Source: Actinomycetota bacterium
Lineage (GTDB): Bacteria; Actinomycetota; Nitriliruptoria; Nitriliruptorales; Nitriliruptoraceae
DNA: 64,000 nt
NCBI GenBank assembly: GCA_019347575.1
Contig: JAHWKY010000011.1
Location: forward strand, 62,001 to 126,000
Direction of reading: 5' to 3'
Shown here: piece by piece, positions 9,487 through 51,480 of the stretch
Position numbering within the stretch: the first letter of the stretch is position 1
Layout of the letters: each line of letters begins with the position of its first letter
Translations under genes and position numbers: made by a program
The notes under the pieces: generated by a model
What the model was told of the DNA's origin: nothing
Database searches by the model: none
What the model saw: only the letters and a program-made list of their open reading frames with translations

Positions 9487-10182
9487 ATGAAGATCGTCCT
9501 GAAGGCGGAGGTCGACAACCTCGGGCTGCCCGGGGACGTCGTCGACGTCGCCGACGGCTACGGCCGCAACTACCTCATCCCGCGGGGGCTCGCCATCAAG
9601 GCGACCCCCGGCGCGATGAAGGAGGCCGCGGCGCTGACGCGCTCACGCAAGGCGCGCGAGGCCAAGACCCTCGGGTCGGCCGAGGCGGCCAAGAACGCCC
9701 TCGAGGCGCGCACGTTGCGCATCCCGGTACGCGTCGACGAGGCCGGGCACCTGTACGGCTCCGTCCGCGCCGAGGACGTCCGCACCGTGCTCAAGGCGCG
9801 TGGCCACGACATCGAGCGGCGCCGCATCGACCTCAAGACGCCGATCAAGCAGATCGGGACCTACGAGGTCGAGATCCACGTCCACCCCCAGGTCAGCGCC
9901 ACCGTGGAGGTCGAGGTCGTGGACCAGGAGGGCGAGGTCACCGTCGAATCGCTCGCCGGCGCCAAGGCGGCCGAGGAGCGCTCGATCGAGGAGGCTGCGC
10001 TCGAGGCGGCCGCGCAGCTCGAGGGCGACGAGGCGGCCGAGGGCGAGCCCGGAACCGACGCGACCGAGAGCGAAGCCACCACCGACGAGGCGGCCCGCGA
10101 CGAGGCGCCGCGGACCGACGCGGCCGCCCCGGCGGCGGCCAGTGACGAGCCCATCGAACAGCCGGAGGACGCCCCGGCGTAA
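9487..10182 (+). CDS. rplI: 50S ribosomal protein L9 with long acidic C-terminal extension
   Basis: 231 aa against about 150 for most L9 proteins. Residues 1-150 are normal L9: MKIVLKAEVDNLGLPGDVV, then GYGRNYLIPRGLA, the connecting helix and the C-terminal rRNA-binding domain ending near VEVVDQEGEV. The last 75 or so residues are Ala/Glu/Asp-rich low complexity (EGDEAAEGEPGTDATESEA and similar), unlikely to fold. L9 stabilises the L1 side of the 50S subunit. Starts 13 nt after rpsR. Confidence 0.94.
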   Translation: MKIVLKAEVDNLGLPGDVVDVADGYGRNYLIPRGLAIKATPGAMKEAAALTRSRKAREAKTLGSAEAAKNALEARTLRIPVRVDEAGHLYGSVRAEDVRTVLKARGHDIERRRIDLKTPIKQIGTYEVEIHVHPQVSATVEVEVVDQEGEVTVESLAGAKAAEERSIEEAALEAAAQLEGDEAAEGEPGTDATESEATTDEAARDEAPRTDAAAPAAASDEPIEQPEDAPA

Positions 10183-10199
10183 CGCGGGAAGGAGCCCCC

Positions 10200-13430: not shown

Positions 13431-13434
13431 CCGG

Positions 13435-13677
13435 GTGGAGTCCTTGCAGTTCCTCATCGTCGGGGGGCTCGGGGCGATCGGCGCCGCCCTGACGGTTGGG
13501 ACGCTCGCGGCCCTCGTGAGGTACCGGCGCACGGGGCGGTGGCCCGGCGAGGAGGAACTCGACGACCCGCCGCCGGTGACCACCGGGCACTGGATCGGGC
13601 TGTGGCTGCGCGTGATCATCGGGGGGGCCCTGACGGTGTGGGCGGTCGTGTCGCTGGTCGCCGCTGACCTCCTGTGA
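13435..13677 (+). CDS. Small two-helix membrane protein, unknown
   Basis: 80 aa from the GTG at 13435, 4 bp after the dnaB stop. Two hydrophobic segments: FLIVGGLGAIGAALTVGTLA near residues 5-24 and LRVIIGGALTVWAVVSLVA near the C-terminus, joined by a charged loop with RYRRTGRWPGEEELDDPP. No family recognised. Its stop overlaps the start of the glycosyltransferase gene by 4 nt, so the two are probably translated together. Confidence 0.6.
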   Translation: MESLQFLIVGGLGAIGAALTVGTLAALVRYRRTGRWPGEEELDDPPPVTTGHWIGLWLRVIIGGALTVWAVVSLVAADLL

Positions 13678-33909: not shown

Positions 33910-34034
33910 GGGGGGTGCCTTCCTCCGGTGCCGGGCCGGGGTAGCAGGAGTGGGAGAAGTTGTCCACATCGAGGCAGGAACTCGGGTTCCCGGTGTCGAA
34001 GTGGAGCACGTGGAAGACGACCCCTCCCCGGTTG

Positions 34035-34052: not shown

Positions 34053-34078
34053 GTCCGATGACGCAACGAGGTGATGTG

Positions 34079-36661
34079 ATGACTACGGCGAACCGACGTG
34101 GAACCGCCGCCCTGATCCTGGCCCTGGTCCTGGGGCTGGCCTTGTACGCGCTTCCGGCGTACGCCGCTGTCCCACGCGGCACGGCGTCGATCACGACGGC
34201 GCGGACGCTTCTCGCCGGCGATACCGGCCAGGACTTCACCCTACAGGTCTGCAATCCCGACCCCGGCGCCGAGAGCCAGACCGTGCACTACGTCAGCGTC
34301 TTCCCTCCGCCGGACATGCTCACGAACCTGTCAGCCAGCGGGCCGTTCGGCTGGAACTCGCAGATCCTGGCCGGCGGTGCCCGGGTGCTGTTCTACGGCG
34401 GGACCTTGCTGCCAGGCCAGTGCGGCAACTTCACCCTGACGGCCGACATCACGCGGCCCGCCACCGACCAAACCCGTGAGTGGGGTGTGTCCGCCAGCAA
34501 CGACGGCATCAGCTTCACCTTCTACGGGCCGGCCACAGAGGGCGCGACCACGACGGTGTTCAAGGTGCTGAAGGTCGTCTCCATCGCCGTGACCGCGCCC
34601 GTCCGTGCCGCCGACGGCACCGTGACGGCAGGGCAGACGGTCACCACGCAGCTCCAGGTCCTCAACCGCTCGTCCAACAACGCCCTCGAGGTGACCCCGA
34701 CGATCAGGGACACGGGCCCGGACGCCACCACCTCCTCGTGCCCGGTCACGACCTTGAACAACGGCCCCGACGCCCAGACGATCACCTGCTCGACGACGTT
34801 CGCCACCGCAGCCGCGGGCGACACCGTCCAGCTCGTCGGCGACGCGACCGCCACTGGTGTGGACGCGTTCGACGCGCAGACGGGCAACATCAGGATCCAG
34901 GCACCGGTGCTGCTGCAGTACGTGACGGGTTCGCTCAACCCCCGCGTGATCGTGCCCAACGGGACGACCGACTGGCAGTTCCGGGCCACGTTCAAGAACC
35001 TCGGGGTCGCGGCCGCGGAGCAGTTGGTCACGAGCGGCAGCCACCTGCGCGTGGGCGGCGCCAGCCTCACCAACCTGCAGTCACCCGAGACCATCCCGCC
35101 CACGCCGAGCTCGGGCGGGGGGTCGGGCGGCACGCAGCTCACGTTCGTGCCGGTGAAGGTCTCCCTGGCGGACGGCACGTACCAGACCGTGTTCCGTGCC
35201 CTCGGTATCGACAGCAACGACCTCCCGATCAGCGTCGACCTGACGCTCGACGAGTTGGTCCTCGACAGTGACGTACCCGCCATCAACAACCTGGCGCTCA
35301 ACCCGCCTGCGTCGCTGGTCAAGGGCGAGGATGCGGCGGCCGGCTCCGGGCGGCCGGTGACCTTCTCGGGCGCCGTCGTGACGAATAGCGGGCCGTGTGC
35401 CGACTGCACCATCACCCAGGCGTTCGTGAACGAGTACGCCCCCGACGGCACGCTGTTCGAGCAGCACGCCCTGCAGACCAGCGGCTCCGGCCGTCAGATC
35501 AGCGTCGACAACTCCGGCAACATCAGCGGCTCCGCGACGCTGACCTACACCGCCCCCAACGACCTGCTCAAGCTGCAGGTGAGGGTGGTGCGGCTGTCGG
35601 TGCTATCAGCCGAGGTGGAGTCGCCGGGGACGCTGCTGGACACCATCGCCCCGCGCTCGGACACCGCCACGACCGTCGGCTTCGCCGGGGACGGCGAGAC
35701 CGACAACACCATCATCCTGCACCTCAGCGAACGCGTCGCGTTCCCGCAGGGGATGTCGCCGGCGGACTGGAACGTGCAGGACAACCTCGTCGCGGACGCC
35801 GTCCTGCAGGACAGCAAGGACATCAACACCAACGATGACGGCACCATCATCGGTGACATCGTCGAGTTGACGCTGCAGAAGGGCCTGGAGGAGGACGAGC
35901 GGCCCGCTCTGCAGTACCAGCCGCCGACGGTGCGACCGCGCGCGTTCGACCGTGTCGACCTGAAGCTCCAGAGCAACCAGATCGTGGCCGCCGACGGCAT
36001 CATCCCGCGGGTGCCGGTGATCGCCACGGTGGCCGGGAAGGCGCTGCAGAACGACACCGAGGACGGCAGCCAGAAGGCGTTCTTCACCAACGACGCGACA
36101 CCGGAGATCCGCATCACGAGCGTGGCCGTCGGCCACGAGGTGACGCTGTACGAAGGCAACGTCGGTGGCGACGTCCTCGCCAGCGGCGAGGTCCAGCAAC
36201 CTCCGCCCGGCCAATCACCGAGCATCACGTTCACGCCCACGTTCACCGAGACGGACCAGCGGCTCACGATCGTGGCGCAAGCCGTCGACCCGGGCCTGAA
36301 CCCGGGAGGTGCGATCAACGAGATCCTCGATCTCGACTTCACCGCTCCGACGATCGTGGGCGCCGCGAAGGGCGACGGGACTGACATCACGGTGTCGCTG
36401 AACGAGCCGGTGACCGTGGGCAGGAACAGCGCGCTCGACTGGACCGTCACCGCCAACGGCGGTCAGGACGCGCTCAACGTCGGCTCCGTCACCGGCAGCT
36501 GGGCCAGCCGGGTCCTGACGATCGACGACTTCCGCTACGACCCGGCCACGACCACCCTCTCGAAGGTCTTCTACGAGTTCTTCGAGGCCGGCGGACCCAG
36601 CGGTGGACGGTACTTCGACCGGGCCGGCAACGCCTTCCCCAACACCGTGTTCAACGCCTGA
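34079..36661 (+). CDS. Large secreted surface protein, paralogue A
   Basis: 860 aa. Signal peptide GTAALILALVLGLALYALPAYA. The body is beta-rich, Gly/Thr/Val-rich with few Lys and six or so Cys in pairs (SSCPVTT, TCSTT; PCADCTIT). Modules around LSERVAFPQGMSPADWNV and LNEPVTVGRNSALDWTVT recall repeated Ig-like domains of SwmB type in S-layer proteins. The C-terminus ends FFEAGGPSGGRYFDRAGN. The protein at 38128 is a full-length paralogue. No anchor or CWB2 repeat. The ATG has GAGG 7 nt upstream. Family unrecognised; a structural surface protein is the likely role. Confidence 0.75.
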   Translation: MTTANRRGTAALILALVLGLALYALPAYAAVPRGTASITTARTLLAGDTGQDFTLQVCNPDPGAESQTVHYVSVFPPPDMLTNLSASGPFGWNSQILAGGARVLFYGGTLLPGQCGNFTLTADITRPATDQTREWGVSASNDGISFTFYGPATEGATTTVFKVLKVVSIAVTAPVRAADGTVTAGQTVTTQLQVLNRSSNNALEVTPTIRDTGPDATTSSCPVTTLNNGPDAQTITCSTTFATAAAGDTVQLVGDATATGVDAFDAQTGNIRIQAPVLLQYVTGSLNPRVIVPNGTTDWQFRATFKNLGVAAAEQLVTSGSHLRVGGASLTNLQSPETIPPTPSSGGGSGGTQLTFVPVKVSLADGTYQTVFRALGIDSNDLPISVDLTLDELVLDSDVPAINNLALNPPASLVKGEDAAAGSGRPVTFSGAVVTNSGPCADCTITQAFVNEYAPDGTLFEQHALQTSGSGRQISVDNSGNISGSATLTYTAPNDLLKLQVRVVRLSVLSAEVESPGTLLDTIAPRSDTATTVGFAGDGETDNTIILHLSERVAFPQGMSPADWNVQDNLVADAVLQDSKDINTNDDGTIIGDIVELTLQKGLEEDERPALQYQPPTVRPRAFDRVDLKLQSNQIVAADGIIPRVPVIATVAGKALQNDTEDGSQKAFFTNDATPEIRITSVAVGHEVTLYEGNVGGDVLASGEVQQPPPGQSPSITFTPTFTETDQRLTIVAQAVDPGLNPGGAINEILDLDFTAPTIVGAAKGDGTDITVSLNEPVTVGRNSALDWTVTANGGQDALNVGSVTGSWASRVLTIDDFRYDPATTTLSKVFYEFFEAGGPSGGRYFDRAGNAFPNTVFNA

Positions 36662-36681
36662 TCCGGACCGCACGACGCGGA

Positions 36682-36709
36682 CGGTGCCGGGGCGCGCGCC
36701 CCGGCACCG
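36682..36709 (+). terminator. Terminator after surface paralogue A
   Basis: CGGTGCCGGGGC-GCGC-GCCCCGGCACCG, a perfect 12-bp stem with a 4-nt loop, 20 bp after the stop codon. Separates paralogue A from the lipoprotein gene, which has its own -10. Confidence 0.7.
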
Positions 36710-36746
36710 CCGCTTCTCGGCGCTGGTCCTGGGTAGCCTCGCCGGC

Positions 36747-37325
36747 GTGATCCAGATCCGCGTCGGTGGGCTGCTGCTGGCTTCGCTGCTGCTGGCATCG
36801 TGCGTGGGCAGCGACCTCGCACCACCGGCGCCGATGTCGCCCTCTCCGACGGGCGCGTCCGCGGCCGCCAGCCTTCTCACCGTCCCGCCGCTGCACCCCA
36901 GCGTCGACGGGTACCCCGAGACAATCGTGCTCCTGCGTAGCCCCGACGGCGACGAGGAGGTCACGTTGCCGGTCAAGGTGGCCGCGACCGCCGAGACCCG
37001 GCGCCACGGGCTCATGGAGGTGCGTGAGCTACCGGCGGGGACGGGCATGCTGTTCGCGTTCCCCGGGGAGCGCGCGGGGGGCTTCTGGATGTTCAACACG
37101 CACGTCGCGCTGGACATCGCCTTCGTCGATGCCGCTGGCCGGATCGGCACGATCCTGGCGATGCAGCCCTGTCCGCAACCGTCCGCCGGGCGCAGCTGCC
37201 CCACCTACGCCCCCGACCACGGCTACACCGCCGCGCTCGAGGTGGCGCAGGGTTGGTTCGCCTCCGTCGGCGTCACCGCCGGGTGGCTCATGGAGGCGGA
37301 CATGAGCGCCGTGTCGGTCGGGTAG
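36747..37325 (+). CDS. DUF192 lipoprotein
   Basis: 192 aa. Lipoprotein signal with lipobox LLAS-Cys around residue 18. DUF192 domain: AETRRHGLMEVRELPAGTGM, FAFPGERAGGFWMFNTHVAL, DIAFVDAAGRI and MQPC, then HGYTAALEVAQGWF. DUF192 proteins are small extracytoplasmic proteins of unclear role. TAGCCT (36734-36739) ends 7 nt before the GTG start, so the mRNA is probably leaderless. A second, more divergent copy follows 9 bp later. Confidence 0.82.
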   Translation: MIQIRVGGLLLASLLLASCVGSDLAPPAPMSPSPTGASAAASLLTVPPLHPSVDGYPETIVLLRSPDGDEEVTLPVKVAATAETRRHGLMEVRELPAGTGMLFAFPGERAGGFWMFNTHVALDIAFVDAAGRIGTILAMQPCPQPSAGRSCPTYAPDHGYTAALEVAQGWFASVGVTAGWLMEADMSAVSVG

Positions 37326-37334
37326 GTTGCGCCG

Positions 37335-37880
37335 GTGCACCGACACGTCGTCGCGGTTCTGGCCACCTCCGTCGCGTTGTTCTCCGCAGCGTGCTCGTCC
37401 GAGGGGCCCGCGCCGGCGCCATCGGCGCAGCCCCTGGGAGACCGTCCCACCGTGGCTGCCGCGACGTCGCTGCCGCCACTCTCGCCCGAGCTCGACGCCC
37501 TGCCACGGTCGGAGGTGACCGTGGTGTCGCTGGAGGGGCCCGAGGCGAGGGTTCCGGTCCGCGTCGCAGCTGGCAGGTCGGCAGCGACCCTGGGTCTTCC
37601 GGGGGTGTCGCAGCTGCCCGACGGCGTTGGTGTCCTCGTCCGCTTCGAGGACCGAGCCGCGCCGTACGCGCCGGAGACCCTCGGGGCGCCGGTGGACGCC
37701 GTGTTCGTGGGTGGGAGCCTCGTCGTCCTCGACGTGCTCGCGGCGGAGCCGTGCGACGGCGACTGCCCGGCACTCGACCCAGGCACGCCGTACGTGGCGG
37801 TGCTCCTGCTCTCGCGGGGGTGGCTCGCCGACAACGGGTTCGTCGAGCCGCTGCGCGTGGTGCTGCCCGACGCGACCTGA
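37335..37880 (+). CDS. Divergent DUF192-like lipoprotein
   Basis: 181 aa. Lipobox FSAAC at about residues 16-20. The layout mirrors the gene before it: a proline-rich linker, a variable first half, then LPDGVGVLVRFEDRAAPY, APVDAVFVGGSLVVLDVLAAEPC and TPYVAVLLLSRGWLADNG, in the place of the DUF192 motifs. The family's Trp/His positions are mostly gone, so it may have a changed role. TAGGTT ends 6 nt before the GTG start, again leaderless-type spacing. Confidence 0.65.
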   Translation: MHRHVVAVLATSVALFSAACSSEGPAPAPSAQPLGDRPTVAAATSLPPLSPELDALPRSEVTVVSLEGPEARVPVRVAAGRSAATLGLPGVSQLPDGVGVLVRFEDRAAPYAPETLGAPVDAVFVGGSLVVLDVLAAEPCDGDCPALDPGTPYVAVLLLSRGWLADNGFVEPLRVVLPDAT

Positions 37881-37990
37881 GCCACCCCGACCGCCAGGTA
37901 CGCCGTACGGCCGGCCGCGTGCGCTGAGCGCTCGCCAGGGCGCCTTGACGTCACCCGACCGGACTAGTCCCCGTTGATGAGGATGAGACG

Positions 37991-38038
37991 GTCGGTCCCG
38001 ACCACGCCACCGAAGCAGGAACGGACGGACCGTCCGTC
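37991..38038 (+). promoter_or_regulatory. Two palindromes in the leader of surface paralogue B
   Basis: GGTCGG-TC-CCGACC (37991-38004) and ACGGACGG-A-CCGTCCGT (38022-38038), 90-135 bp before the ATG. The 247-bp gap holds no gene. They could be hairpins in a long leader or operator sites. Confidence 0.35.
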
Positions 38039-38127
38039 GAAGTACTCACGGTGTAACGCCGGACACGCTCCGGCGCACGTGGGGCCCCTCCGGCGCCAGC
38101 GACCCCCCACGATGAGGTGGACGACAT

Positions 38128-40746
38128 ATGACCGCACGACGCATCCGCAGCACCATCGGCCTCGTGGCGCTCCTCGTGGCTGCCGCGATGGTGGCGACCA
38201 CACTCCCGGCCCTCGCGGCGCCACCTTCCGGGACCGCCCAGATCACCACCGCGCGGACCGTGCTGGCGGGCGAGCTCGGGCACCGCTTCAACGTGCAGGC
38301 CTGCAACCCGACCGCGGGCACCGACTCGCAGCCGGTGTCGTACGTCAGCGTCTTCCCGCCACCGGACATGTTCGTAGCGGGCAGCCTCACGACCCAGCCG
38401 CCCACGGGCTGGAACGCCTCCATCCTGGCTGGCGGCGCGCGCGTGCTGTACTACGGCGGGACGCTGCTCCCAGGGACGTGCGCCACCTTCGGGCTCACCG
38501 CCACCGTCGCCCGTCCCGCGACCGACCAGACGCGCACCTGGGGTGTGTCGGCGTCGGCTGACGGCGTCACCTCCTCCAGCTACGGTCCGTCCTCCGAGGG
38601 CGCCTTGACCGTGACCTTCCCCGTGCTGAAGGTCACCCAGGTCGCCATCGCCGCGCCTGCACGCGCGACCGACAACACCGTCACGGCCGGCCAAACGGCG
38701 CGGGTCAGCCTGAAGGTCATCAACCGCGCGAGCACCGACGTGGTCGGCTCCGCCGCGATCACGGGAGCCAACACCTCGAGCGTCTGCCCCGATCCGCGGA
38801 GCCTGGCCCCCACGCCCGATGTCTCGGCTGGCGACACGCTCCACGAGATCGTGTGCGACACGACCTTCGCGAGCGGCGCCGGCGGAACGACCACGACCCT
38901 CACCGCCGACGTGACGGCCACCGGCGTGAACGCCATCGACGCGGTGACGCCTTCGATCGCCATCCAGCGTGCCGTGGACCTGCAGTTCGTCGCGAACACG
39001 CTCACGCCGCGTGCCGTCAACCCGGACGGAACGACGCCCTACGAGTTCAAGACGACGTTCAAGAACGTCGGTGCCGTCTCGGCGGAGAACCTCGTCGCTG
39101 CCGGCACCGAGATCGTCTTCACGAACGGCGCGACCGTCTTCAGGGCGCGACTGAAGTCGCCTGACGTGGTCCCGCCCACGCCCTCCTCGGGAAGCGGTAG
39201 CGGCGGCACCCAGCTCGTCTTCGAACCCATCACCATCGACGGTGGGGTCGTGCCGGACGGTGCCTACGACGTCGCCGTCGACTTCGGTGGCATCGACACC
39301 AACGATGTCGTCCTCGACGTGACCAAAGCACTTACCAACACGCTCCTGGTCGATCGCCTCGCGCCGATCGTCAACGACCTCCGTCTGCTCCTCCCCGCAT
39401 CCCTGGTCAAGGGCGAGCTGGACGCGGCTGGCTCGGGTCGCTCACTCGGCTTCGACGGTCAGGTCCTCAAGGCTGGCCTGCCCTGCGGCGACTGCACCAT
39501 CACCGCGGCGTCCGTCAAGCAGTACCGGGCGGGGCAGCCGAACGGGGAGATCACGCTCGACTCGAAGCAGATCAAGATCGATGACAGCGGCAAGATCACG
39601 GGATCCATCACGCCCACGTTGGCGGCCGGGACCGACCAGGTCGAGCTCAACGTGACCGTCAAGCACCTGGCGCCGCAGACCACGCTGGCGGTGTCGCCGC
39701 GAGCCCTCGCCGACACGGCCTCTCCCCGGTCCGACTCCGCGGCCACGCTCGGGATCGCAGGTGAGACCAACCGGACCATCGTGGTGTCGCTGTCCGAGCG
39801 CGTCGCCTGGCCAGGCGGACCGAACGCCGCCCAGTGGTCGGTGCAGGACAACGTGGTCTCGGACGTGAAGCTCGGCGACAGCAAGGGCATCGGGGCCAAC
39901 GACGACGGCACGCCCGTCGGCGACACGATCACCTTGACCGTCCAGCGGCCACTGCGCGAGGACGAGACGCCTGGCGTGCAGCACCGTGCGCCTCCGGTGA
40001 GCGAACGTCCCTTCGACCGCGTCGACCTCAAGCTGGCCGAGAACCTGGTGACCGCGGTCGACGGCATCCTGCCAGCGGTTCCGCTCATCGACACGGTGAA
40101 CGGGCGCGCATCCCAGCAGGATCACCCGACCGACACGACCAAGAAGGCGTTCTTCACCAACCAGGAGCAGGTCCGCGTCCGCATCACGCAGGTCGCGGTC
40201 GGTCACCGGGTCGAGCTGTACCGCGACCGCGTGGGCGGCGACCTGCTCGCCCGCGGAGACGTCCAGCAGCCGATGGTGCCAGGCTCCCAGCCGTCCATCA
40301 CGCTCACGGTGACCCTCCCGCGAACTGACGACCGGTTCGCCGTGGTGGCGCGGGCGCTCGACACGACCCTCAACCCCAGCGGGGCCCGGACCGAGATCCT
40401 CGTCCTGGACTTCACGGCTCCCGATCTGGCGGCGGTGACGAAGGGCACGGGCAGCGACGTCGTGGTGACCTTGAGCGAGCCGATCCTCGAGGGCCGTGAC
40501 TCGGCCCTGGACTGGACGGTCACCGGTGGTCCCGATGGTTCCGAGCAGAACGCGTTCAACGTCGGGCAGGTGACCGGCGCCTGGAACACCCGCACCCTGA
40601 CGCTGGACGACTTCCGCTACACGCGGGACGGCACCGTCCTGAACAGCGTCTACTACGACTTCTTCGAGGCCGGCGGACCGGCTGGAGGTCGCTACGTGGA
40701 CCGGGCGGGCAACGTGTTCGGCGACACGGTGCTCGCGGCGGCTTGA
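38128..40746 (+). CDS. Large secreted surface protein, paralogue B
   Basis: 872 aa. Signal peptide IGLVALLVAAAMVATTLPALA. Aligns along its length with the protein at 34079: ITTARTVLAGELG, YVSVFPPPDM, ILAGGARVLYYGGTLLPG, ATDQTRTWGVSAS, VPPTPSSGSGSGGTQL, CGDCTIT, LSERVAWPGGPNAAQW, ALDWTVTGG and the ending DFFEAGGPAGGRYVDRAGN. Divergence is spread evenly, so the duplication is old. GAGGTGG precedes the ATG. No anchoring domain. Probably assembles at the cell surface, perhaps with the CWB2 protein encoded next. Confidence 0.75.
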   Translation: MTARRIRSTIGLVALLVAAAMVATTLPALAAPPSGTAQITTARTVLAGELGHRFNVQACNPTAGTDSQPVSYVSVFPPPDMFVAGSLTTQPPTGWNASILAGGARVLYYGGTLLPGTCATFGLTATVARPATDQTRTWGVSASADGVTSSSYGPSSEGALTVTFPVLKVTQVAIAAPARATDNTVTAGQTARVSLKVINRASTDVVGSAAITGANTSSVCPDPRSLAPTPDVSAGDTLHEIVCDTTFASGAGGTTTTLTADVTATGVNAIDAVTPSIAIQRAVDLQFVANTLTPRAVNPDGTTPYEFKTTFKNVGAVSAENLVAAGTEIVFTNGATVFRARLKSPDVVPPTPSSGSGSGGTQLVFEPITIDGGVVPDGAYDVAVDFGGIDTNDVVLDVTKALTNTLLVDRLAPIVNDLRLLLPASLVKGELDAAGSGRSLGFDGQVLKAGLPCGDCTITAASVKQYRAGQPNGEITLDSKQIKIDDSGKITGSITPTLAAGTDQVELNVTVKHLAPQTTLAVSPRALADTASPRSDSAATLGIAGETNRTIVVSLSERVAWPGGPNAAQWSVQDNVVSDVKLGDSKGIGANDDGTPVGDTITLTVQRPLREDETPGVQHRAPPVSERPFDRVDLKLAENLVTAVDGILPAVPLIDTVNGRASQQDHPTDTTKKAFFTNQEQVRVRITQVAVGHRVELYRDRVGGDLLARGDVQQPMVPGSQPSITLTVTLPRTDDRFAVVARALDTTLNPSGARTEILVLDFTAPDLAAVTKGTGSDVVVTLSEPILEGRDSALDWTVTGGPDGSEQNAFNVGQVTGAWNTRTLTLDDFRYTRDGTVLNSVYYDFFEAGGPAGGRYVDRAGNVFGDTVLAAA

Positions 40747-40765
40747 TCTCCCGAGCCCGCAGCAG

Positions 40766-40788
40766 GGGTCGCCCGGCGAGGGCGACCC
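40766..40788 (+). terminator. Terminator after surface paralogue B
   Basis: GGGTCGCCC-GGCGA-GGGCGACCC followed by TT, 9-bp perfect stem, 20 bp after the stop. Confidence 0.65.
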
Positions 40789-40841
40789 TTCCTGCGTACC
40801 CTCGGAGCCGTGAGGGGGGAGCCCACAGGAGTGCCACGATC

Positions 40842-43800
40842 ATGTCCCACGTGCAGAGCCGAGCCGCCTGGACTCTCGTCCTGGCCGTGGCGCTGCTGCT
40901 CGCGTTCCTCCCGACGACGAGCGCAGCGCTCCCGGTGCTCGGCGCACCGCCCCAGCCCCACATCGAGCCTCCGCCGCGGCACACGGCCGTCCGTCCCGGT
41001 GCGGACCACGGCCGTATCGAGATCAGCGGGACCGCCGACCCCAACGCCACGATCGAGACGGCGTACATCGTCATCGTCGATGAGAACGGCGTCCTCGCTC
41101 GCCGCGACGCCACCGATCGCGTCCTCAACGTCGGTGGTGTCCTCAGCGGCAACTACACGCTCGGCCCGCTCGACGAGGACCAGCAGAGCGCCACTTCGCT
41201 GTACCTCGAGGTCACCACGCGCGCGGGCTCGGCGGCGCCCGAGACGGGCAGGTCCAACTCGATCCCTATCGACATCACCAAGCCGTTCATCACGACCTGG
41301 CGCTTGGTCTCCACCGACCGCATCGAGATCACGTTCAGCGAGCCCGTCGAGGGCCCCAACCAGCCCTCCGACTGGGCCATCGGACCCAGCGGCGAGCGCG
41401 TCTGCCCGTTCGAATCGTCTCGGCCAGCCGCGGTCACCGGTACGGACGCGCGCCGGACCCTGACGCTGGCCGTCCCGGTTGGTGAGGACGCGACCCCGCA
41501 CGTCTGTTACAACTCCGACGTCGAGGCCTACCACGACGGGGCGTTCAACCTCGTCAGCGGGGATTCCGACTTCGCCGACGACGCCATCCCGCCACGCGCC
41601 CCGCGCTTCACCCACATCGATGGCAAGCCTCTCGACAGCAACGGACGCGTGCGGTCGAACGAGCCGACCCCGGACGTGACGCTCGACACGGTGACGCAGG
41701 GCCACACCGTCCACATCTACCTCAACGACGGCAGTCCCGGCTACGAGCCGGAGCATGACCCCGAGGTCGGCGAGGCGGTGGTGACGGGTTCCGGCGGACA
41801 GGTGCTCGTGGAGAACGTGGGCGGGAAACTGCCTGACCGCCGGCTTCCCGAGGGTCACAACCGGTTCTTCGCGCGTGCCGAGGACCCGTCCGGCAACCTG
41901 ACCGAACTGGCGGACATCCGCACTGCCGTGTACGAGCTCGACTCGATCGCGCCGACGGCGCTGGCTGCGGCGGCCACCGCCGAGCGGGTCTTCGTCTCGT
42001 TCAGCGAACCGCTGTTCGGCCCCAACGACGTTTCGCGCTGGTGCGTGTCCACCGGTGCACCGATCACGGACGTGCGTGGAAGCGACGGCAGCGCTCTCCG
42101 CGAGGTCGTCGTCGCGGGACTGACCGAGGGCGACACCATCTCGTACGATCGCTGCGGTGGATCCCCCGATCCGTCCACGCGCTACACGGACGCCGTCGGC
42201 AACCGTCTGGTGCCGTTCACGATCCCTGTGACCGGTGGTCCCGTCGTGCTCATCGACGACGTCAGCGTGAGCGAGGGTGACCAGGGAGACTTCCCGGTCG
42301 CCGAGTTCCGCCTGTCGATCAGCGAGCCACCCGCCGACCATGCTTCGGTCACCTACGCGACGTTCCCGGGTTCGGCGGAAGCCGACGAGGACTACTACTC
42401 GCTGGCAGGGAGTGTCGAGTTCCCGCAGGGCGAGACCGAGGATCGCACCGTCAGCGTGCCGATCAAAGGTGATGTGCTCGACGAGTTCGACGAGACCTTC
42501 GGGGTCGTCATCGAGTCCAAGGATGAGCACGCGAACGTTCTCCCGGGCGCGGATCGCGGCACCGGCACCATCCTCGACGACGATCCCCTGGCAGCGGTGT
42601 CCGTGGGAGACGTGGACGTGGCCGAGGGCGGCTCCGCCCCGATCGAGGTGCGCCTGGACCGCCCGAGCGGCAAGGACGTGACCGTCGGCTGGCGTTCCCG
42701 CTCTGCATCTGCGACGGACGGCCTCGACTTCACGGCTGCAACTGGGGCCGTCACGATCCCGGCCGGCGCGACGAGTGCGGAGGTGTTGGTAGAGGCGCTC
42801 GAGGACACGATGCACGAGGACGACGAAGCCTTCCACCTCGTCCTCGGCAACCCGGTCAACGCCACCATCGGGGACGCCACCGGACGCGTGACGATCCTGG
42901 ACGACGACGCGCCTCCGCTGCTGCGGCTCTCGGACGCCGATGCCGTCGAGCGCGACACCACGCTGACGCAAGCCCGCCCCGTAGCGACGCTCTCTGCCAT
43001 CAGCGGACGCGATGTCGCCTTCGACTGGCTCGACGTGCAAGAGACGGCGACGCGAGGTACCGACTACCGAGCAGCGCCCAGACGGGTCGTCATCCCCGCT
43101 GGCTCGACCAGTGCCGCGGTGAGCATCGACGTGCTCCCCGACACCCTCGTCGAACAGGACGAGACGCTGCGCGTCGAGCTGTCCTCGGTGTCCGGTGCCG
43201 AGGTGGTCGATGGCGTCGCCACCGTGACGATCCTCGACAACGACGGGCCCACCGACAGCGACCGCAACGGGGGCCGCGACCGCACCGAGACCTCCGTCGA
43301 GGTCTCCCGCGACACCTTCCCAGGGACCACCGACAACGTCGTCATCGCACGCGCCGACGCGTACCCCGACGCGCTCGCCGGTGGCCCGCTCGCCGTGGAG
43401 CTGTTGGCGCCGATCCTGCTGACGCCGGGCGACGCGTTGCACCAGGCCGTCCGTCAGGAGATCCAGCGGCTCGATGCGCGCACCGCGTACCTGCTCGGCG
43501 GCGACGAGGCCGTCTCCCCCGCCATCGCGGCGGAGCTGCAGCGCATGGGCCTCGACGTGGTCCGCATCGGCGGCGAGAACCGCTTCGAGACCGCCGCCCT
43601 CATCGCGGCCGAGCTGGGCGGCGCCGACGCGTTCGTGACCGAGGGCATCAACGTCGATCCCAACCGTGGCTGGCCCGACGCGGTGGCGGTTAGCGCCCTC
43701 GCGGCGCACCTGCGCGTCCCGATCCTCCTCACCCGTGCCGGTGACCTCCCCGTCGAGACCGCGACCGCCATCGATGCGCTCGGTGTCGGCGAGGTCACGG

Positions 43801-44192
43801 TCGTGGGTGGACCCGTGGCGGTGTCCGAGGCGGTGGAGGCGCAGCTGCGACAGCTGGGCACCAGCACCGAGCGACTCGCCGGCGACACCCGCTACGGCAC
43901 GTCGCGGGCGGTCGCGGACCGCTCGGTCGAGGTCGGCATGGAGCCCCGTGCCGTGTGGTTCGCGACCGGCCGCAACTGGCCCGACTCGCTCGCCGCGGGG
44001 CCGGCCGTGGTCCAGCAGAGGCACGGCGTGCTGGTCCTCATCGACGGGCTGAACGGGTTCGGGACCGCTCCCGAGATCGGCGAGTTCCTCGACGTGCACG
44101 CCGAGAACATCCTGCGCATCGTGCTCGTGGGCGGCGAGGCGGCAATCAGCGACGAGGTCGCCGAATCGATCCTGCTGCGCATCGACCGCTGA
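40842..44192 (+). CDS. Calx-beta / CWB2 cell-wall-binding surface protein
   Basis: 1116 aa. Signal peptide WTLVLAVALLLAFLPTTSA. Residues 60-450 contain Ig-like modules with ITFSEPVEGPNQPSDWAI and VSFSEPLFGPNDVSRWCV, like those in the two large paralogues. Then three Calx-beta domains (each ending near ILDDD or ILDND, acidic calcium-binding loops) at about 460-810. The last 310 residues are three cell-wall-binding repeat 2 units: RADAYPDALAGGPLA, YLLGGDEAVSP, NRFETAALIA, VVGGPVAVSE, ATGRNWPDSLAAGPAV, LVGGEAAISD. The repeats would attach it non-covalently to wall polymer. A calcium-dependent surface scaffold is likely. Start ATG 40842. Confidence 0.85.
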   Translation: MSHVQSRAAWTLVLAVALLLAFLPTTSAALPVLGAPPQPHIEPPPRHTAVRPGADHGRIEISGTADPNATIETAYIVIVDENGVLARRDATDRVLNVGGVLSGNYTLGPLDEDQQSATSLYLEVTTRAGSAAPETGRSNSIPIDITKPFITTWRLVSTDRIEITFSEPVEGPNQPSDWAIGPSGERVCPFESSRPAAVTGTDARRTLTLAVPVGEDATPHVCYNSDVEAYHDGAFNLVSGDSDFADDAIPPRAPRFTHIDGKPLDSNGRVRSNEPTPDVTLDTVTQGHTVHIYLNDGSPGYEPEHDPEVGEAVVTGSGGQVLVENVGGKLPDRRLPEGHNRFFARAEDPSGNLTELADIRTAVYELDSIAPTALAAAATAERVFVSFSEPLFGPNDVSRWCVSTGAPITDVRGSDGSALREVVVAGLTEGDTISYDRCGGSPDPSTRYTDAVGNRLVPFTIPVTGGPVVLIDDVSVSEGDQGDFPVAEFRLSISEPPADHASVTYATFPGSAEADEDYYSLAGSVEFPQGETEDRTVSVPIKGDVLDEFDETFGVVIESKDEHANVLPGADRGTGTILDDDPLAAVSVGDVDVAEGGSAPIEVRLDRPSGKDVTVGWRSRSASATDGLDFTAATGAVTIPAGATSAEVLVEALEDTMHEDDEAFHLVLGNPVNATIGDATGRVTILDDDAPPLLRLSDADAVERDTTLTQARPVATLSAISGRDVAFDWLDVQETATRGTDYRAAPRRVVIPAGSTSAAVSIDVLPDTLVEQDETLRVELSSVSGAEVVDGVATVTILDNDGPTDSDRNGGRDRTETSVEVSRDTFPGTTDNVVIARADAYPDALAGGPLAVELLAPILLTPGDALHQAVRQEIQRLDARTAYLLGGDEAVSPAIAAELQRMGLDVVRIGGENRFETAALIAAELGGADAFVTEGINVDPNRGWPDAVAVSALAAHLRVPILLTRAGDLPVETATAIDALGVGEVTVVGGPVAVSEAVEAQLRQLGTSTERLAGDTRYGTSRAVADRSVEVGMEPRAVWFATGRNWPDSLAAGPAVVQQRHGVLVLIDGLNGFGTAPEIGEFLDVHAENILRIVLVGGEAAISDEVAESILLRIDR

Positions 44193-44271: not shown

Positions 44272-44436
44272 GTGGACAGCTGGCAGGTCGTCATCCTGGT
44301 CTTCTTCGTGCTGCTCCCGCTCGTGCTGATGATCGACTTCTGGGGTGACGAGCGCCTGAGCTTCCGCGGTCGGCCGATCGCGCGGCCCTGGATCCGCCAG
44401 ATCGAGCACGCCGACCCCTCCGACGAGCACCATTAG
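44272..44436 (+). CDS. 54-aa single-span membrane protein
   Basis: Small gene with a good GGAGGTAGAG ribosome-binding site 4 nt before its GTG start and TAGGTT at 44225 as a possible -10. The peptide opens MDSWQVVILVFFVLLPLVLM, one membrane helix, followed by a basic/acidic cytoplasmic tail (FRGRPIARPWIRQIEHADPSDEHH). Followed directly by a hairpin. No family known. Resembles the many short actinobacterial membrane peptides of unknown role. Confidence 0.55.
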   Translation: MDSWQVVILVFFVLLPLVLMIDFWGDERLSFRGRPIARPWIRQIEHADPSDEHH

Positions 44437-44469: not shown

Positions 44470-44547
44470 CTCCAACCTCGGGTGCAACAGCCGCGCCACT
44501 CGGCGCGTCACTGGGGTGCGACCCGACGGAGGGGAAGCCCCAACGTG

Positions 44548-45039
44548 ATGTCCTCGCTCTCGACGACCGCCGGCTCGGCCCGGGCTGCGGACGCCTGGCC
44601 TCCCGGTTTCGTGGCGCTGTACCACGACCGTTACGGCGACATGGTCCGGCTCGCCCGTCTCATCGTGAGCCGCAACGACGTCGCTGAGGAGCTCGTACAG
44701 GACTGCTACCTGAAGATCGCCGGGCGTTGGGACGACATCGAGGTGCACGGGGCGTACCTGCGACGTGCCGTCGCCAACGCGGGGCGGTCCTACCTCCGGC
44801 GTCACGGGCGGCTCCGCCCACTGACCGCGGCGGCCGAGCCCGTGACCGGACCGCCCGAGTACCACGATGTCTGGCGCGAGCTGGATCGGCTCAGCCCACG
44901 GCGTCGCGTCGCCGTGGTGCTGCGCTACTACGAGGACCTCGACGACGCCGAGATCGGCCGGATCCTCGGCTGCAAGCCCGCCACGGTCCGCTCGCTCGTC
45001 CACCGTGCCCTGAAGCAACTCGAGGAGGTGCTGGCATGA
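44548..45039 (+). CDS. ECF sigma factor (SigE-like group)
   Basis: 163 aa RNA polymerase sigma-70 family factor with regions 2 and 4 only. Region 2: FVALYHDRYGDMVRLARLIV and EELVQDCYLKIAGRW; region 4: LSPRRRVAVVLRYYEDLDDAEI and ATVRSLVHRALKQLEEVL. Start ATG 44548; the GTG one codon earlier is equally possible, with GGAGGGG 12-15 nt upstream. Its stop overlaps the next start (ATGA), so sigma factor and putative anti-sigma factor are coupled. The signal is unknown. Confidence 0.87.
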   Translation: MSSLSTTAGSARAADAWPPGFVALYHDRYGDMVRLARLIVSRNDVAEELVQDCYLKIAGRWDDIEVHGAYLRRAVANAGRSYLRRHGRLRPLTAAAEPVTGPPEYHDVWRELDRLSPRRRVAVVLRYYEDLDDAEIGRILGCKPATVRSLVHRALKQLEEVLA

Positions 45040-46112
45040 CCCGCGTCGAGGATCGACTCCGTGCCACGCTCGAGGAACACGCCGCAGCGACCAGGATGTC
45101 CGAGGACGCGCTCGAGGTGATGGAGCGCCGTCACGCCCGCCGTCGCCTCGCGCGGTGGCCGCTCGCGCTCGGCCTCGCCGCCGTCAGCGTCGCCGCGGTC
45201 GCCGGGGCCGCCATCCTCACCGCCCCGACCGAGCAGGCCGGCCCGGACCCTGCTGCCAACCCGCCGCGTGACCCACGGCCCGTCGACGCCCCGGTCGCCG
45301 CGGAACCCACCGCCCTCCCCGCGGTCCAGCCGAACTGGGACGAGCTGACGCTGCACGAGGCGGTGGACCACCTCATCGCCCTGAACGAGGCCCGCCCCGC
45401 CCCCGCCCCGCTGGTCCCGGGCCAGGAGCGGGTCGTCCTCACCGTCGGCGCAGCGCTGCACACCACCGTGGGGCCCGCTGGTACCCATACCGTCCGCTAC
45501 CTGGCACAGGAGCAGATCCGGGTCGCGGCCGACGGCAGCATGCGCTACGCCGAGCGCGTCCTCGCCGAGGACGTCCCGGTCACGGCCACGCTCGACGAAC
45601 TCCGGGCGATCGTCGCGGATGCCGACGACACCCCGCCCTTCCCCGAGCCCACCCCTCTGGAGCCGATCGACGACCCCGCCCTGGACGAGGCGGAGGCGCT
45701 ATCGCACGGCAGCGCAGCGCCAGCACCAGGACGCACCGAGCGCCCCGACCAGTCCTACGCGTTCATGCGGATGCTCGACGCGTTCCGCTACACGCTGGTC
45801 CCGTCGCCGGAGCACACCATCCGGGCGTTGCGGATCATCCGCGGGCTGGACGACGCGATCGTGGACTACCGCGGGACGTTCGAGGACCTGATCGGCCGCG
45901 AGGTGGTGGCCTTCGCCGGCTTCGACCACGCCAACGACGCCTGGATGGTGGCGCTCTTCGACCCCGAGACGGGTGCGTTCGTCGGCGAGTTCGATGAGTT
46001 CACCCAGCCGCTCGAGGGCATGGAGGGAGTCGAACCGCCGGTCGTCGGGAGCATCGGGGCGCTCGTCAGCGAGACCATCGAACCCCCCGCCTCCTCCGAG
46101 GAGCACGACTGA
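45036..46112 (+). CDS. Putative membrane anti-sigma factor / sensor partner
   Basis: 358 aa. The 46-residue cytoplasmic N-terminus is charged (RVEDRLRATLEEHAAATRMS); one membrane helix (WPLALGLAAVSVAAVAGAAIL) follows; a Pro-rich linker and a large extracytoplasmic domain complete it. No zinc-binding HxxxCxxC motif is present, so it is not a classical ZAS anti-sigma factor. Overlap with the sigma gene (ATGA) makes an anti-sigma or co-regulator role likely but unproven. The outer domain, e.g. RGTFEDLIGREVVAFAGFDH, is unrecognised. Confidence 0.65.
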   Translation: MTRVEDRLRATLEEHAAATRMSEDALEVMERRHARRRLARWPLALGLAAVSVAAVAGAAILTAPTEQAGPDPAANPPRDPRPVDAPVAAEPTALPAVQPNWDELTLHEAVDHLIALNEARPAPAPLVPGQERVVLTVGAALHTTVGPAGTHTVRYLAQEQIRVAADGSMRYAERVLAEDVPVTATLDELRAIVADADDTPPFPEPTPLEPIDDPALDEAEALSHGSAAPAPGRTERPDQSYAFMRMLDAFRYTLVPSPEHTIRALRIIRGLDDAIVDYRGTFEDLIGREVVAFAGFDHANDAWMVALFDPETGAFVGEFDEFTQPLEGMEGVEPPVVGSIGALVSETIEPPASSEEHD

Positions 46113-47202: not shown

Positions 47203-49056
47203 ATGGCCAAGGCCGTCGGCATCGACCTCGGTACGACCAACTCGGTCGTCTCGACCCTCGAAGGTGGCGAGTCCACCGTCATCCCCAACGCGGAGGGCAG
47301 CCGCACGACCCCGTCGGTGGTGGCGTTCGGCAAGGGCGGTGAGGTCCTGGTCGGCGAGGTCGCCAAGCGCCAGGCTGTCACCAACGCCGAGCGGACCATC
47401 CGGTCGGTGAAGCGCCACATGGGCACCGACTGGAAGACCGACATCGAGGGCAAGCACTACACCGCGCAGGAGATCTCCGCGCGCATCTTGATGAAGCTCA
47501 AGCGCGACGCCGAGAGCTACCTCGGTGACGAGGTCGTCCAGGCGGTCATCACCGTCCCGGCGTACTTCGATGACGCCCAGCGTCAGGCCACCAAGGAGGC
47601 GGGCGAGATCGCCGGCCTCGAGGTGCTGCGTCTGGTCGCCGAGCCGACCGCGGCGGCGCTGGCGTACGGGCTCGACAAGGAGGATGACCAGACCATCCTC
47701 GTGTTCGACCTCGGCGGCGGGACCTTCGACGTCTCGGTGCTCGAGATCAGCGAGGGCGTGTTCGAGGTCAAGTCCACCTCCGGGGACAGCCACCTCGGCG
47801 GTGACGACTGGGACCAGGCGGTCATCGACTGGCTCGTCAAGACCTTCAAGGACAACCACGGGCCCGACCTGTCGAAGGACAACATGGCCCTGCAGCGACT
47901 CAAGGAAGCGGCGGAGAAGGCCAAGATCGAGCTGAGCCAGGCACAGGAGACCTCGATCAACCTGCCCTTCATCACCGCGACCGACCAGGGTCCACTGCAC
48001 CTCGAGCAGACCCTGTCGCGCGCCAAGTTCATCGAGCTGACCGCGCACCTGCTCGACAAGCTCCGCGGCCCGTTCAACCAGGCCATCAAGGACGCCGGCG
48101 GTAACGTCGGCCAGATCGACCACGTCATCCTCGTCGGCGGCTCCACCCGGATGCCCGCCGTCAAGGACCTCGTCAAGGAGCTGACCGGCGGCAAGGAGCC
48201 CCACCAGGGCGTCAACCCCGACGAGGTGGTGGCGGTCGGGGCGGCGCTGCAGGCCGGGGTGCTCAAGGGCGAGGTCAAGGACGTCCTGCTGCTCGACGTG
48301 ACGCCACTGTCCCTCGGCATCGAGACCAAGGGCGGCATCGCTCACAAGCTGATCGAGCGCAACACCACCATCCCCACCAAGCGGTCCGAGACCTTCACGA
48401 CCGCCGACGACAACCAGCCGTCGGTCGAGATCCACGTCACCCAGGGCGAGCGCGAGATGGTCAGCGACAACAAGTCGCTCGGCAAGTTCATGCTGACCGA
48501 CATCCCGCCCGCGCCTCGCGGCATCCCGCAGATCGAGGTCACGTTCGACATCGATGCCAACGGCATCGTGCACGTCAACGCCAAGGACCTCGGCACGGCC
48601 AAGGAGCAGTCGATGACCATCACCGGCGGCTCGGCACTGCCCAAGGAGAACATCGAGCAGATGATCAAGGACGCCGAGGCGCACGCGGAGGAGGACCGCA
48701 AGCGGCGCGAGGCCGCCGAGGTCAGGAACCAAGCCGACGCCCTGGCGTACCAGACCGGCAAGAGCCTCAAGGACCACGGTGACAAGCTCGAGGCGGCCCA
48801 GAAGGCCGAGGTCGAGCAGGCGCTCACCGAGCTCCGCGAGGCGCTGAAGGGCGACGACACCGACGCCATCAAGGCCAAGATGGAGTCGCTCGCGACCAAG
48901 TCCCAGGCGCTGGCCCAGGCGATCTACGCCGCGACCGGCGACCAGGGTGGAGCCGCCGCTGATGCTGCCGCCGGCGGCGAGACGGCTGGCTCCTCCGACG
49001 AGGTCATCGACGCCGAGGTCGTCGACGAAGGCGACGACCAGGAAGCGGCGTCGTGA
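47203..49056 (+). CDS. dnaK: Molecular chaperone DnaK (Hsp70)
   Basis: 617 aa. ATPase domain begins [20 protein letters not shown], with [15 protein letters not shown] and [13 protein letters not shown]; the substrate domain includes [17 protein letters not shown] and the C-terminus is Glu/Ala/Gly rich ([13 protein letters not shown]). Folds and protects proteins with GrpE and DnaJ encoded downstream. Start ATG 47203 with CGCGAGGAG upstream; the longer open frame to 46927 is rejected. Controlled by the HAIR-like site. Confidence 0.97.
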
Positions 49057-49109
49057 CGACCGTGAGAGTCACAACCCGAGCCGATACGCACCGAGGAGGT
49101 GTTCGCACG

Positions 49110-49556
49110 ATGGCAACCGATATGTCACGTTGGACCGGCCGGGAGCTGGCGGGCCTCCAGGACGAGGTCGGCCGCATGTTCAGCCAGGTGTTCGGCTCGT
49201 CCGACGCGCCGGTGACGTCCGCCGGCGCGTGGAGCCCGGCCCTCGACGTCGAGGAGACCGACGCGGAGTTCATCCTCCACGTCGAGCTCCCGGGCATGTC
49301 GCCCGATGACGTCGAGATCTCGATCGAGGAGAGCGTGCTCACCATCACCGGTGAGCGGCGCTTCTACGACGACCGCAGCGAGGAGGGCTTCCGCCGGGTC
49401 GAGCGGCGCTACGGCCGCTTCCACCGCGCCGTGCGGCTGCCCGACCGTGTCAAGGCCGACGAGATCGACGCGAGCTACCGCGACGGCCTCGTCACGATCA
49501 CGGTGCCCAAGGCCCCTGAGGCCCGACCGCGACGGATCAAGGTGACCCACGCCTGA
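49110..49556 (+). CDS. Small heat shock protein (Hsp20 family)
   Basis: 148 aa alpha-crystallin-domain protein. WSPALDVEETDAEFILHVEL, PGMSPDDVEISIEES, and GRFHRAVRLPDRVKADEIDA; C-terminal IxI-like anchor RRIKVTHA. ATP-independent holdase. GAGGAGG precedes the ATG by about 10 nt. Placing an Hsp20 gene between dnaK and grpE is unusual; it is 53 bp after dnaK, likely the same transcript. A strong hairpin follows it. Confidence 0.88.
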   Translation: MATDMSRWTGRELAGLQDEVGRMFSQVFGSSDAPVTSAGAWSPALDVEETDAEFILHVELPGMSPDDVEISIEESVLTITGERRFYDDRSEEGFRRVERRYGRFHRAVRLPDRVKADEIDASYRDGLVTITVPKAPEARPRRIKVTHA

Positions 49557-49566
49557 CAACCGCACA

Positions 49567-49593
49567 GGGGGCCGGCACCGCGCCGGCCCCCTT
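49567..49593 (+). terminator. Strong hairpin between hsp20 and grpE
   Basis: GGGGGCCGGC-ACCGC-GCCGGCCCCC-TT, a perfect 10-bp stem. It lies inside the chaperone cluster, so it may attenuate transcription or block 3' decay and lower grpE-clpB relative to dnaK-hsp20. Confidence 0.65.
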
Positions 49594-49614
49594 CTCGCCG
49601 GACCGGAGAGGACC

Positions 49615-50271
49615 ATGGAGGAGCACACCCACCACGACGCCCCGGCGGACCCCGAGGTCCCCGCGGGCACCGAGGTCCCGGAGGCGGCCGACGAGACCAC
49701 CCGCGAGGCGATCGACGACACCGCGGCTCGCGCGTCAGCGGCGGAGACCATCGCCGCTGACTCGACCGACAGCTCCGACGACAGCGGCGGCTCCGTGGAC
49801 CAGGCGCAGAACGTGGCCGACCCGCTCGCCGCCATCACGGCCGAGCGCGACGAGTACCTGGCCGATCTGCAACGCGTCCAGGCCGAGTTCGACAACTTCC
49901 GCAAACGCGTCATGCGCGAGGGCACCGCACAGCGCACCGCAGGCGTCGCCGAGGTCGTGACCAAGCTGCTGGACGTGCTCGACGACTTCGACATGGCGGT
50001 GCTGTCGGTCGACAAGACCGACGACGTCGCGTCGCTGCACAAGGGACTCGAGCTGGTCTACAGCAAGCTCATCGCCACGATCCGCTCGCTCGGCGTCGTG
50101 CGCGTCGACGACACCGGCGTGCCCTTCGACCCCGAGCGTCACGAGGCGGTGGCTTCGGTCGAGGCCGCTGGCGAGCCCCACGACGAGCCGCTCGTGGTCG
50201 ACGTGCTCCGCCCCGGCTACCTGCTCGGTGAGCGGGTGCTGCGCGCCGCCATGGTCAAGGTCGAGAAGTAG
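49615..50271 (+). CDS. grpE: Nucleotide exchange factor GrpE
   Basis: 218 aa. The first 80 residues are an acidic, Asp/Glu/Ala/Thr-rich low-complexity arm. The GrpE core begins with a long helix (ERDEYLADLQRVQAEFDNFR) and has VLDDFDMAV, GLELVYSKL, VPFDPERHEAV and the beta domain ending VLRPGYLLGERVLRAAMVKV. Releases ADP from DnaK. ATG with GGAGAGG upstream. Its stop codon lies inside the first unit of a 36-bp tandem repeat. Confidence 0.95.
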   Translation: MEEHTHHDAPADPEVPAGTEVPEAADETTREAIDDTAARASAAETIAADSTDSSDDSGGSVDQAQNVADPLAAITAERDEYLADLQRVQAEFDNFRKRVMREGTAQRTAGVAEVVTKLLDVLDDFDMAVLSVDKTDDVASLHKGLELVYSKLIATIRSLGVVRVDDTGVPFDPERHEAVASVEAAGEPHDEPLVVDVLRPGYLLGERVLRAAMVKVEK

Positions 50272-50339
50272 TGCTCAAGCAGCGGAAGCGGTAGCACGAC
50301 TCGGTAGTGCTCAAGCAGCGGAAGCGGTAGCACGACTCA
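50268..50339 (+). repeat. 36-bp tandem duplication between grpE and dnaJ
   Basis: Two 36-bp units (50268-50303 and 50304-50339) differing at one base. Unit: GTAGTGCTCAAGCAGCGG... with terminal GTGCT and AGCAC able to pair. The first unit includes the grpE stop codon. The second ends just before the dnaJ ribosome-binding site. Recent slippage duplication; it could alter translation coupling of dnaJ. Confidence 0.92.
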
Positions 50340-50352
50340 GTAAGGAGGACGC

Positions 50353-51480
50353 GTGGCATCCCAGGACTGGCTCGACAAGGACTTCTACGCCGTGCTCGGC
50401 GTGAGCCAGGACGCCTCGGCTGCCGAGATCAAGAAGGCCTACCGCAAGCTCGCCCAGCAGCTGCACCCCGACGCCAACAAGGACCCCGACGCCGAGGAGC
50501 GGTTCAAGGCGGTCAACGAGGCCTACGCCGTGCTCGGCGACGACGACAAGCGCAAGGAGTACGACGAGCTGCGTCGACTCGGAGCCATGCACGGAGGCTT
50601 CGGGGCGGGCTACGGCGGTGCAGCGGGTTTCGACGGTGACCTCGGCGATCTGCTCCGAGGGTTCTTCGGCACCGGCGGCGGTAGCGGCGGCGGCGGGTTC
50701 GGTCCGGGCATGGGCGCCCGCCGCCGCACCGCCCGCAAGGGCGCCGACCTCCGGGCGGACGTGCACCTCACGTTCGAGGAGGCCCTCAAGGGCGTCCGCA
50801 CGACGCTGCGGGTGACCGGCGACGGCATCTGCGAGCGCTGCAACGGCACCGGGGCCAAGCCCGGCAGCCAGCCCCGTCGCTGTCCGGAGTGCGGGGGCTC
50901 GGGTGGCATCGCGGTCAACCAGGGCCCGTTCTCGATCGCGCAGCCCTGCCCCACCTGCAACGGCGGCGGCACCGTCGTCGACGAGCCCTGCGAGGTCTGC
51001 GGCGGGTCGGGTCGGGACGTCAAGCCCCGCGAGCTGTCGGTCCGCATCCCGGCCGGCGTCAAGGACGGCGCCGTGATCCGGCTGCAGGGCCGGGGCGCGC
51101 CCGGCGCGTTCGGGGCGCCCGCCGGGGACGTGCTGGTCCGCGTCCACGTCGCGTCGCATCCCGTGTTCGGCCGCAAGGGCGACGACGTCACCGTCGAGGT
51201 GCCGATCACCTACTCGGAGGCGGCCCTCGGCACCAAGCTGCGGGTTCCCGACCCCGAGGGCGGGGCCACCACCATCAAGATCCCAGCGGGGACCGCCACG
51301 GGACGCACGTTCCGCCTCCGTGGCAAGGGCGCCCCGACCCGCGCCGGAGGACGGGGAGACCTGCTCGCCACCGTCCGGGTCGAGGTCCCGTCCAAGCTGT
51401 CGAAGGCCCAGCGCGATCTGATCCAGCAGCTCGGCGAGCACGACGACACCTCCGCGCGCGACGAGCGGATGGGGGTGTGA
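50353..51480 (+). CDS. dnaJ: Chaperone protein DnaJ
   Basis: 375 aa, type I DnaJ. J-domain with HPD (LAQQLHPDANKD), Gly-rich linker (100-130), four zinc-binding repeats CERCNGTG, CPECGGSG, CPTCNGGG, CEVCGGSG, and the C-terminal substrate domains. The N-terminus has DWLDKDFYAVLGVSQDASAAE, as in actinobacterial DnaJ1. Stimulates DnaK ATPase. GTG start at 50353 after TAAGGAGG. The repressor gene hspR follows 8 bp later. Confidence 0.95.
   Translation: MASQDWLDKDFYAVLGVSQDASAAEIKKAYRKLAQQLHPDANKDPDAEERFKAVNEAYAVLGDDDKRKEYDELRRLGAMHGGFGAGYGGAAGFDGDLGDLLRGFFGTGGGSGGGGFGPGMGARRRTARKGADLRADVHLTFEEALKGVRTTLRVTGDGICERCNGTGAKPGSQPRRCPECGGSGGIAVNQGPFSIAQPCPTCNGGGTVVDEPCEVCGGSGRDVKPRELSVRIPAGVKDGAVIRLQGRGAPGAFGAPAGDVLVRVHVASHPVFGRKGDDVTVEVPITYSEAALGTKLRVPDPEGGATTIKIPAGTATGRTFRLRGKGAPTRAGGRGDLLATVRVEVPSKLSKAQRDLIQQLGEHDDTSARDERMGV

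Follow-up and report, generated by a model that had tools for sequence, protein, structure and literature searches.

We found that a gene cluster in a 64,000-nucleotide stretch of actinobacterial DNA (the window) may encode a multi-component cell-surface coat, in which a wall-anchored scaffold protein would hold large secreted proteins that have no anchor of their own. In our judgement this reading has about an even chance of being right. The earlier note on this DNA had described two large paralogues (here giant1 and giant2) with two lipoproteins between them, and a last gene with wall-binding and Calx-beta repeats (here the scaffold). That layout was confirmed overall, from the gene positions to the paralogy, and the features are as follows.

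33974-34002, plus strand: promoter-like motif of ECF type, GCAGGAAC-N13-GTCGAAGT, upstream of giant1 (exact match)
34079-36661, plus strand: giant1, secreted, 860 aa, undescribed family; a second in-frame ATG lies at 34058
35630-36658, plus strand: M-Ig-M block of giant1, residues 518-860, aligned to the scaffold block by hhalign; AlphaFold2 pLDDT 79.9
36682-36709, plus strand: 12-bp perfect GC hairpin after giant1
36747-37325, plus strand: DUF192a lipoprotein, intact (PF02643, 1.1e-24, 86.8 bits; lipobox LASC)
37335-37880, plus strand: DUF192b lipoprotein, degenerate (PF02643, 6.9e-5, 23.3 bits, Pfam cut-off 27)
38015-38043, plus strand: promoter-like motif, the same as that of giant1, upstream of giant2 (exact match)
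38128-40746, plus strand: giant2, secreted, 872 aa, paralogue of giant1 (53% identity; sister in the tree, 100/100)
39703-40743, plus strand: M-Ig-M block of giant2
40766-40788, plus strand: 9-bp perfect GC hairpin after giant2
40842-44192, plus strand: scaffold, 1116 aa, with signal peptide, M-Ig-M block, three Calx-beta and three CWB2 stretches
41259-42233, plus strand: M-Ig-M block of the scaffold, homologous to the C-terminal half of the giants
42234-43262, plus strand: Calx-beta region in three stretches, the best at 42630-42908 (PF03160, 5.7e-33)
43263-44159, plus strand: three CWB2 repeats (43263-43526, 43563-43838 and 43872-44159; PF04122)

The two giants align end to end, as the earlier note had reported (E 1.3e-254 over the full length in a pairwise alignment), and neither has a family match in Pfam or NCBIfam. 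Sequence searches of the PDB with giant profiles returned zero matches, and an Rfam search of the locus found no RNA. In the 4.89 Mb genome that contains the window (G000), giant1 and giant2 are the only members of their family. All giants are predicted to carry a secretion signal, none has an anchor or a transmembrane segment, and the proteins of the system are all acidic (pI 4.1-4.9). We make no claim about the fold of the N-terminal half of giant1; an AlphaFold model of the whole protein, for which three sequences were used, scored poorly (pLDDT 44).

Ten giants were found in five genomes, while most relatives carry neither giants nor scaffold; all counts are lower bounds, since the genomes searched are a sample and members can slip through the first-look filters. 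A protein search of 101 genomes gave one further giant, in G017 (JAHWJY01, contig JAHWJY010000003.1, 'Actinomycetota bacterium isolate 0712_bin1'), which was also the sole relative found in contig scans of genomes for giants. Its cluster reads, in order, an ACT gene on the minus strand, one DUF192 lipoprotein, one giant, and a scaffold with two Calx-beta and three CWB2 stretches. A profile built from these three giants added G055 and G042, both of the same class as G000. G055 could be identified as Euzebya pacifica, because 6 kb of its second contig are identical to plasmid NZ_CP031166.1, and G042 is a sister genome. In each, three giants of about 926 aa stand in tandem ahead of a 1709-aa scaffold that has three CWB2 repeats but no Calx-beta. 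These Euzebya-type giants matched those of the window over the N-terminal half (P 98.8, E 7e-17), and their C-terminal module was found by profile. Finally, a nine-member profile reached another class of the phylum, where G189 has one giant (E 1.8e-75) followed directly by a 931-aa scaffold.

A secreted scaffold gene lies directly 3' of the last giant in all five genomes, which between them offer no fewer than three distinct chromosomal settings. The pair is preceded by an ACT gene and followed by a dnaK cluster in G000 and G017, is followed by an HpcH/HpaI lyase in G042, and is preceded by DUF520 and HAD hydrolase genes in G189. Its persistence in differing neighbourhoods argues for a working link and not for inherited gene order alone. 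The chaperone cluster itself, of dnaK, grpE and dnaJ type, was located at 47203-51480 of the window and at 9930-14417 of locus L012 in G017. The number of giants varies by lineage (1, 2 or 3), and the scaffold is always single. In a maximum-likelihood tree, giant1 and giant2 grouped together apart from the G017 giant, and the three Euzebya copies paired between the two species with support of 99-100; tandem amplification of the giants therefore occurred at least twice independently.

The scaffold is related to the giants through a collinear block of three domains: a module M (SEPV...DW...D.AGN), an Ig-like domain, and a second module M. In every giant the block forms the C-terminal 320-400 residues; in each scaffold it spans about 310-350 residues close to the N-terminus. 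When whole scaffolds were aligned globally with MAFFT, their N-termini came out misaligned, and the blocks were therefore aligned separately. Comparing seven giant blocks with five scaffold blocks, hhalign gave P 99.6 and E 1.5e-23, with M paired to M and the Ig-like domain to its counterpart. When this was repeated with controls, the score was 181, against at most 17.3 in 60 column shuffles, 17.7 for a reversed alignment, and 14.8 for the N-terminal half of the giants against the scaffold block. The 'SEPV...DW' modules that the earlier note saw in the giants and the last gene are thus part of a larger shared unit than was claimed.

This block is nearly confined to the system. Its profile matched only giant1, giant2 and the scaffold in G000, despite the roughly fifty CWB2 proteins of that genome, and only giants and scaffolds in 66 genomes of the class, bar one marginal match (E 9.6e-4). 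Among 396 genomes of the phylum, a full-length scaffold block occurred only where giants exist, with three weak partial matches elsewhere. A 7182-codon open frame, L080 (G096:C8:38069-38467), matched the scaffold block weakly and in part (E 1.8e-5).

AlphaFold, given five sequences, modelled the block as nearly all beta (pLDDT 79.9, pTM 0.56), and three Ig-like domains are predicted. The neighbours of this model in a Foldseek search of the PDB were tandem Ig/FnIII proteins with low global TM-scores: the adhesin SiiE ranked 3, SbsC ranked 4 (E 2.7e-5), 16 and 38, and the H. volcanii S-layer protein ranked 41. The predicted fold would be compatible with a role at the surface and does not point to an enzyme. 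It does not prove a coat, because tandem Ig-like domains are common in adhesins and receptors, and it is too common to prove an S-layer.

Beyond the block, the scaffold carries the Calx-beta and wall-binding repeats that the earlier note had assigned to it. The N-terminus of the window scaffold is hydrophobic and PF04122 matches it in three tandem stretches (1.1e-44), as expected of a CWB2 surface protein. Three CWB2 repeats are present in four of the five scaffolds. The exception is the scaffold of G189, which has no recognised anchor; CWB2 is absent from that entire genome. Calx-beta was found in just two of the five, those of the window and G017. Unanchored giants are thus always adjacent to a scaffold, which bears CWB2 everywhere but in G189, and this matches the pairing of an unanchored with an anchored subunit in a two-component S-layer. 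As a separate observation, CWB2 repeats show a very large expansion in several of these genomes, with 157 repeat matches in G000 and at least 155-163 in Euzebya-type genomes (G042, G047, G055); G006, from the same family as G000, has zero. For comparison, C. difficile has 28 CWB2 proteins besides SlpA (PMC8056022).

Each window giant has its own promoter-like site. Both sites have 0 mismatches, while the chance mean is 0.57 at up to 3 mismatches, and the form seen across most giants is GGAAC-N13-(GT/GG)CGAA. Giants 1 and 2 of G042 and G055 have the motif upstream with the same spacing, and G017 has a weaker form; it was not found before the third Euzebya giant, nor in strict form in G189. Across the whole of G000, 22 matches with at most 1 mismatch were found, against 2 for the reversed pattern. 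A signal-bearing ORF starts 33-92 bases after the first base of the motif in 13 of the 20 other matches, compared with 5.5% of random positions, the latter scored over a broader search range. Products encoded behind GGAAC-N13-GTCGAAG include an M14 carboxypeptidase, a subtilase (S8), two S15 peptidases, an amidase and a cupredoxin. Since the motif mostly precedes signal-bearing ORFs, the giants are probably members of a secreted-protein regulon. Just downstream of the scaffold (44482-46112) lie the gene of a SigE-family ECF sigma factor and, after it, that of a CU044_5270-family protein, likely its regulator. A link between the motif and the sigma gene at 44482 is tentative, as no ECF gene was noticed beside the G017 cluster. 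A 54-aa ORF with one hydrophobic segment (44272-44436) separates the scaffold from the sigma gene.

The earlier note had placed terminators between the giant genes and suggested independent high expression. Perfect GC hairpins do follow both giants, but their T-runs are weak or absent, and they went uncalled in a scan for T-run terminators. The 70 bases after the giant fold at -39 kcal/mol or lower in 10 of 10 cases, and a perfect stem of at least 9 bp follows 7 of the 10 giants, compared with 2 of 54 control genes and none of the 5 scaffolds. These hairpins may attenuate transcription or stabilise transcripts, and so raise the giants above the scaffold. Codon usage did not support the idea of high expression: adaptation to ribosomal genes was 0.743 for both giants, mid-range for the window (DnaK, 0.864), which gives no sign of exceptional expression or abundance.

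Taken as a mechanism, each giant would be exported by its signal peptide and would arrive without an anchor. The scaffold would be exported as well, and by analogy with other CWB2 proteins its three repeats would bind secondary wall polymers. Because the blocks are homologous in scaffold and giants, contact between them would be the simplest mechanism of assembly, through which a wall-bound scaffold could nucleate or hold a layer of giants. The separate ECF-type promoter-like site and strong hairpin of each window giant might then supply giants in excess of the scaffold. The surface-layer interpretation in the earlier note stands as far as the constant pairing, the unanchored secreted giants and the wall-binding repeats of the scaffold are concerned; a crystalline surface lattice, very high expression and physical binding between the proteins are inferred. 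Against a coat stand the mid-range codon usage, the common Ig-like fold, the scaffold of G189 without a recognised anchor, and the restriction to just five genomes.

Some of the same evidence would suit a surface adhesin or fibre complex, in which elongated Ig-like giants are clustered at low copy on the CWB2 scaffold and attach to particles or other cells. The Foldseek neighbours include the calcium-binding adhesin SiiE, the extender region of a large adhesion protein, and PrgB; the scaffolds of the window and G017 carry Calx-beta, and unremarkable codon usage agrees with low copy. However, no ligand-binding domain was recognised, and the conserved strong hairpin after every giant, together with separate promoters, suggests a dosage well above that of one partner. 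We consider this reading somewhat unlikely. It is clearly less probable that the giants act alone outside the cell, with the scaffold a paralogue that is adjacent only through duplication at the same locus. An ancestral block common to giants and scaffold could leave adjacency as a relic, and the promoter motif of both giants also heads genes for secreted peptidases and an amidase. Yet the two genes remain neighbours in two classes and in three or more unrelated settings, and neither giant nor scaffold was found without the other among the 66 class and 396 phylum genomes.

The lipoproteins offer another reading, a DUF192-dependent envelope unit in which they are the working part and the giants their substrates or carriers. 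Both window copies read as lipoproteins (signal plus lipobox), as the earlier note had stated for its two DUF192-like genes. The family assignment is clear for DUF192a, which lies above the PF02643 cut-off; DUF192b is degenerate, falls below it, and has lost the conserved FWM..NT stretch while retaining the lipoprotein signal. A DUF192 lipoprotein adjoins the giants in G000 and G017, but the Euzebya and G189 clusters showed none, and one of the two window copies is the degenerate one. The conserved core of the system excludes these lipoproteins, and we regard such a unit as very improbable.

Returning to the surface coat, we tentatively propose, at rather less than an even chance, that it is a hitherto undescribed kind of bacterial coat, here in Actinomycetota, in which free giants, repeatedly amplified in tandem (1, 2 or 3), join one paralogous scaffold via M-Ig-M and the wall anchor is lineage-specific (CWB2 where the genome has it, another one elsewhere). 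We found very little literature on the envelopes of Nitriliruptoria and no paper on Euzebya S-layers. If the reading is true, it would give a deep lineage of actinobacteria a defined candidate for a coat, Euzebya pacifica being a named, sequenced member. It would also provide a natural experiment in the evolution of multi-subunit coats, in which the free subunit multiplies and the anchor stays single. A two-component coat would also have a simple origin if its anchor and its layer protein arose as paralogues.

Several known systems resemble parts of this arrangement. The nearest working analogues are SlpA and SlaA/SlaB, to which no sequence relation of the locus proteins was found. Geobacillus SbsC and other Ig-like S-layer proteins have tandem Ig-like domains as the giants do, but SbsC is a single protein, with low TM-scores and no sequence relation found to the locus. 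The CWB2 cell wall proteins (Cwp family) share the three CWB2 repeats of the scaffold, whereas the giants have no CWB2 and the N-terminal half of the scaffold forms a separate family. SlaA/SlaB of Sulfolobales likewise combine an unanchored layer protein with an anchor bearing Ig-like domains (PMC10903991); they are archaeal, use a membrane coiled-coil anchor, and gave no family match with the locus. In C. difficile, where CWB2 needs three motifs, the CWB2-bearing HMW subunit of SlpA carries the unanchored LMW subunit (PMC8056022). The locus would similarly combine a subunit held to the wall by three CWB2 motifs with a surface partner that has no anchor. Its proteins gave no Pfam match to the LMW_SLP domain and do not come from a single precursor as SlpA does: HMW and LMW are cleaved from one precursor, while the locus uses separate genes, one to three unanchored paralogues, and a shared Ig-like block.
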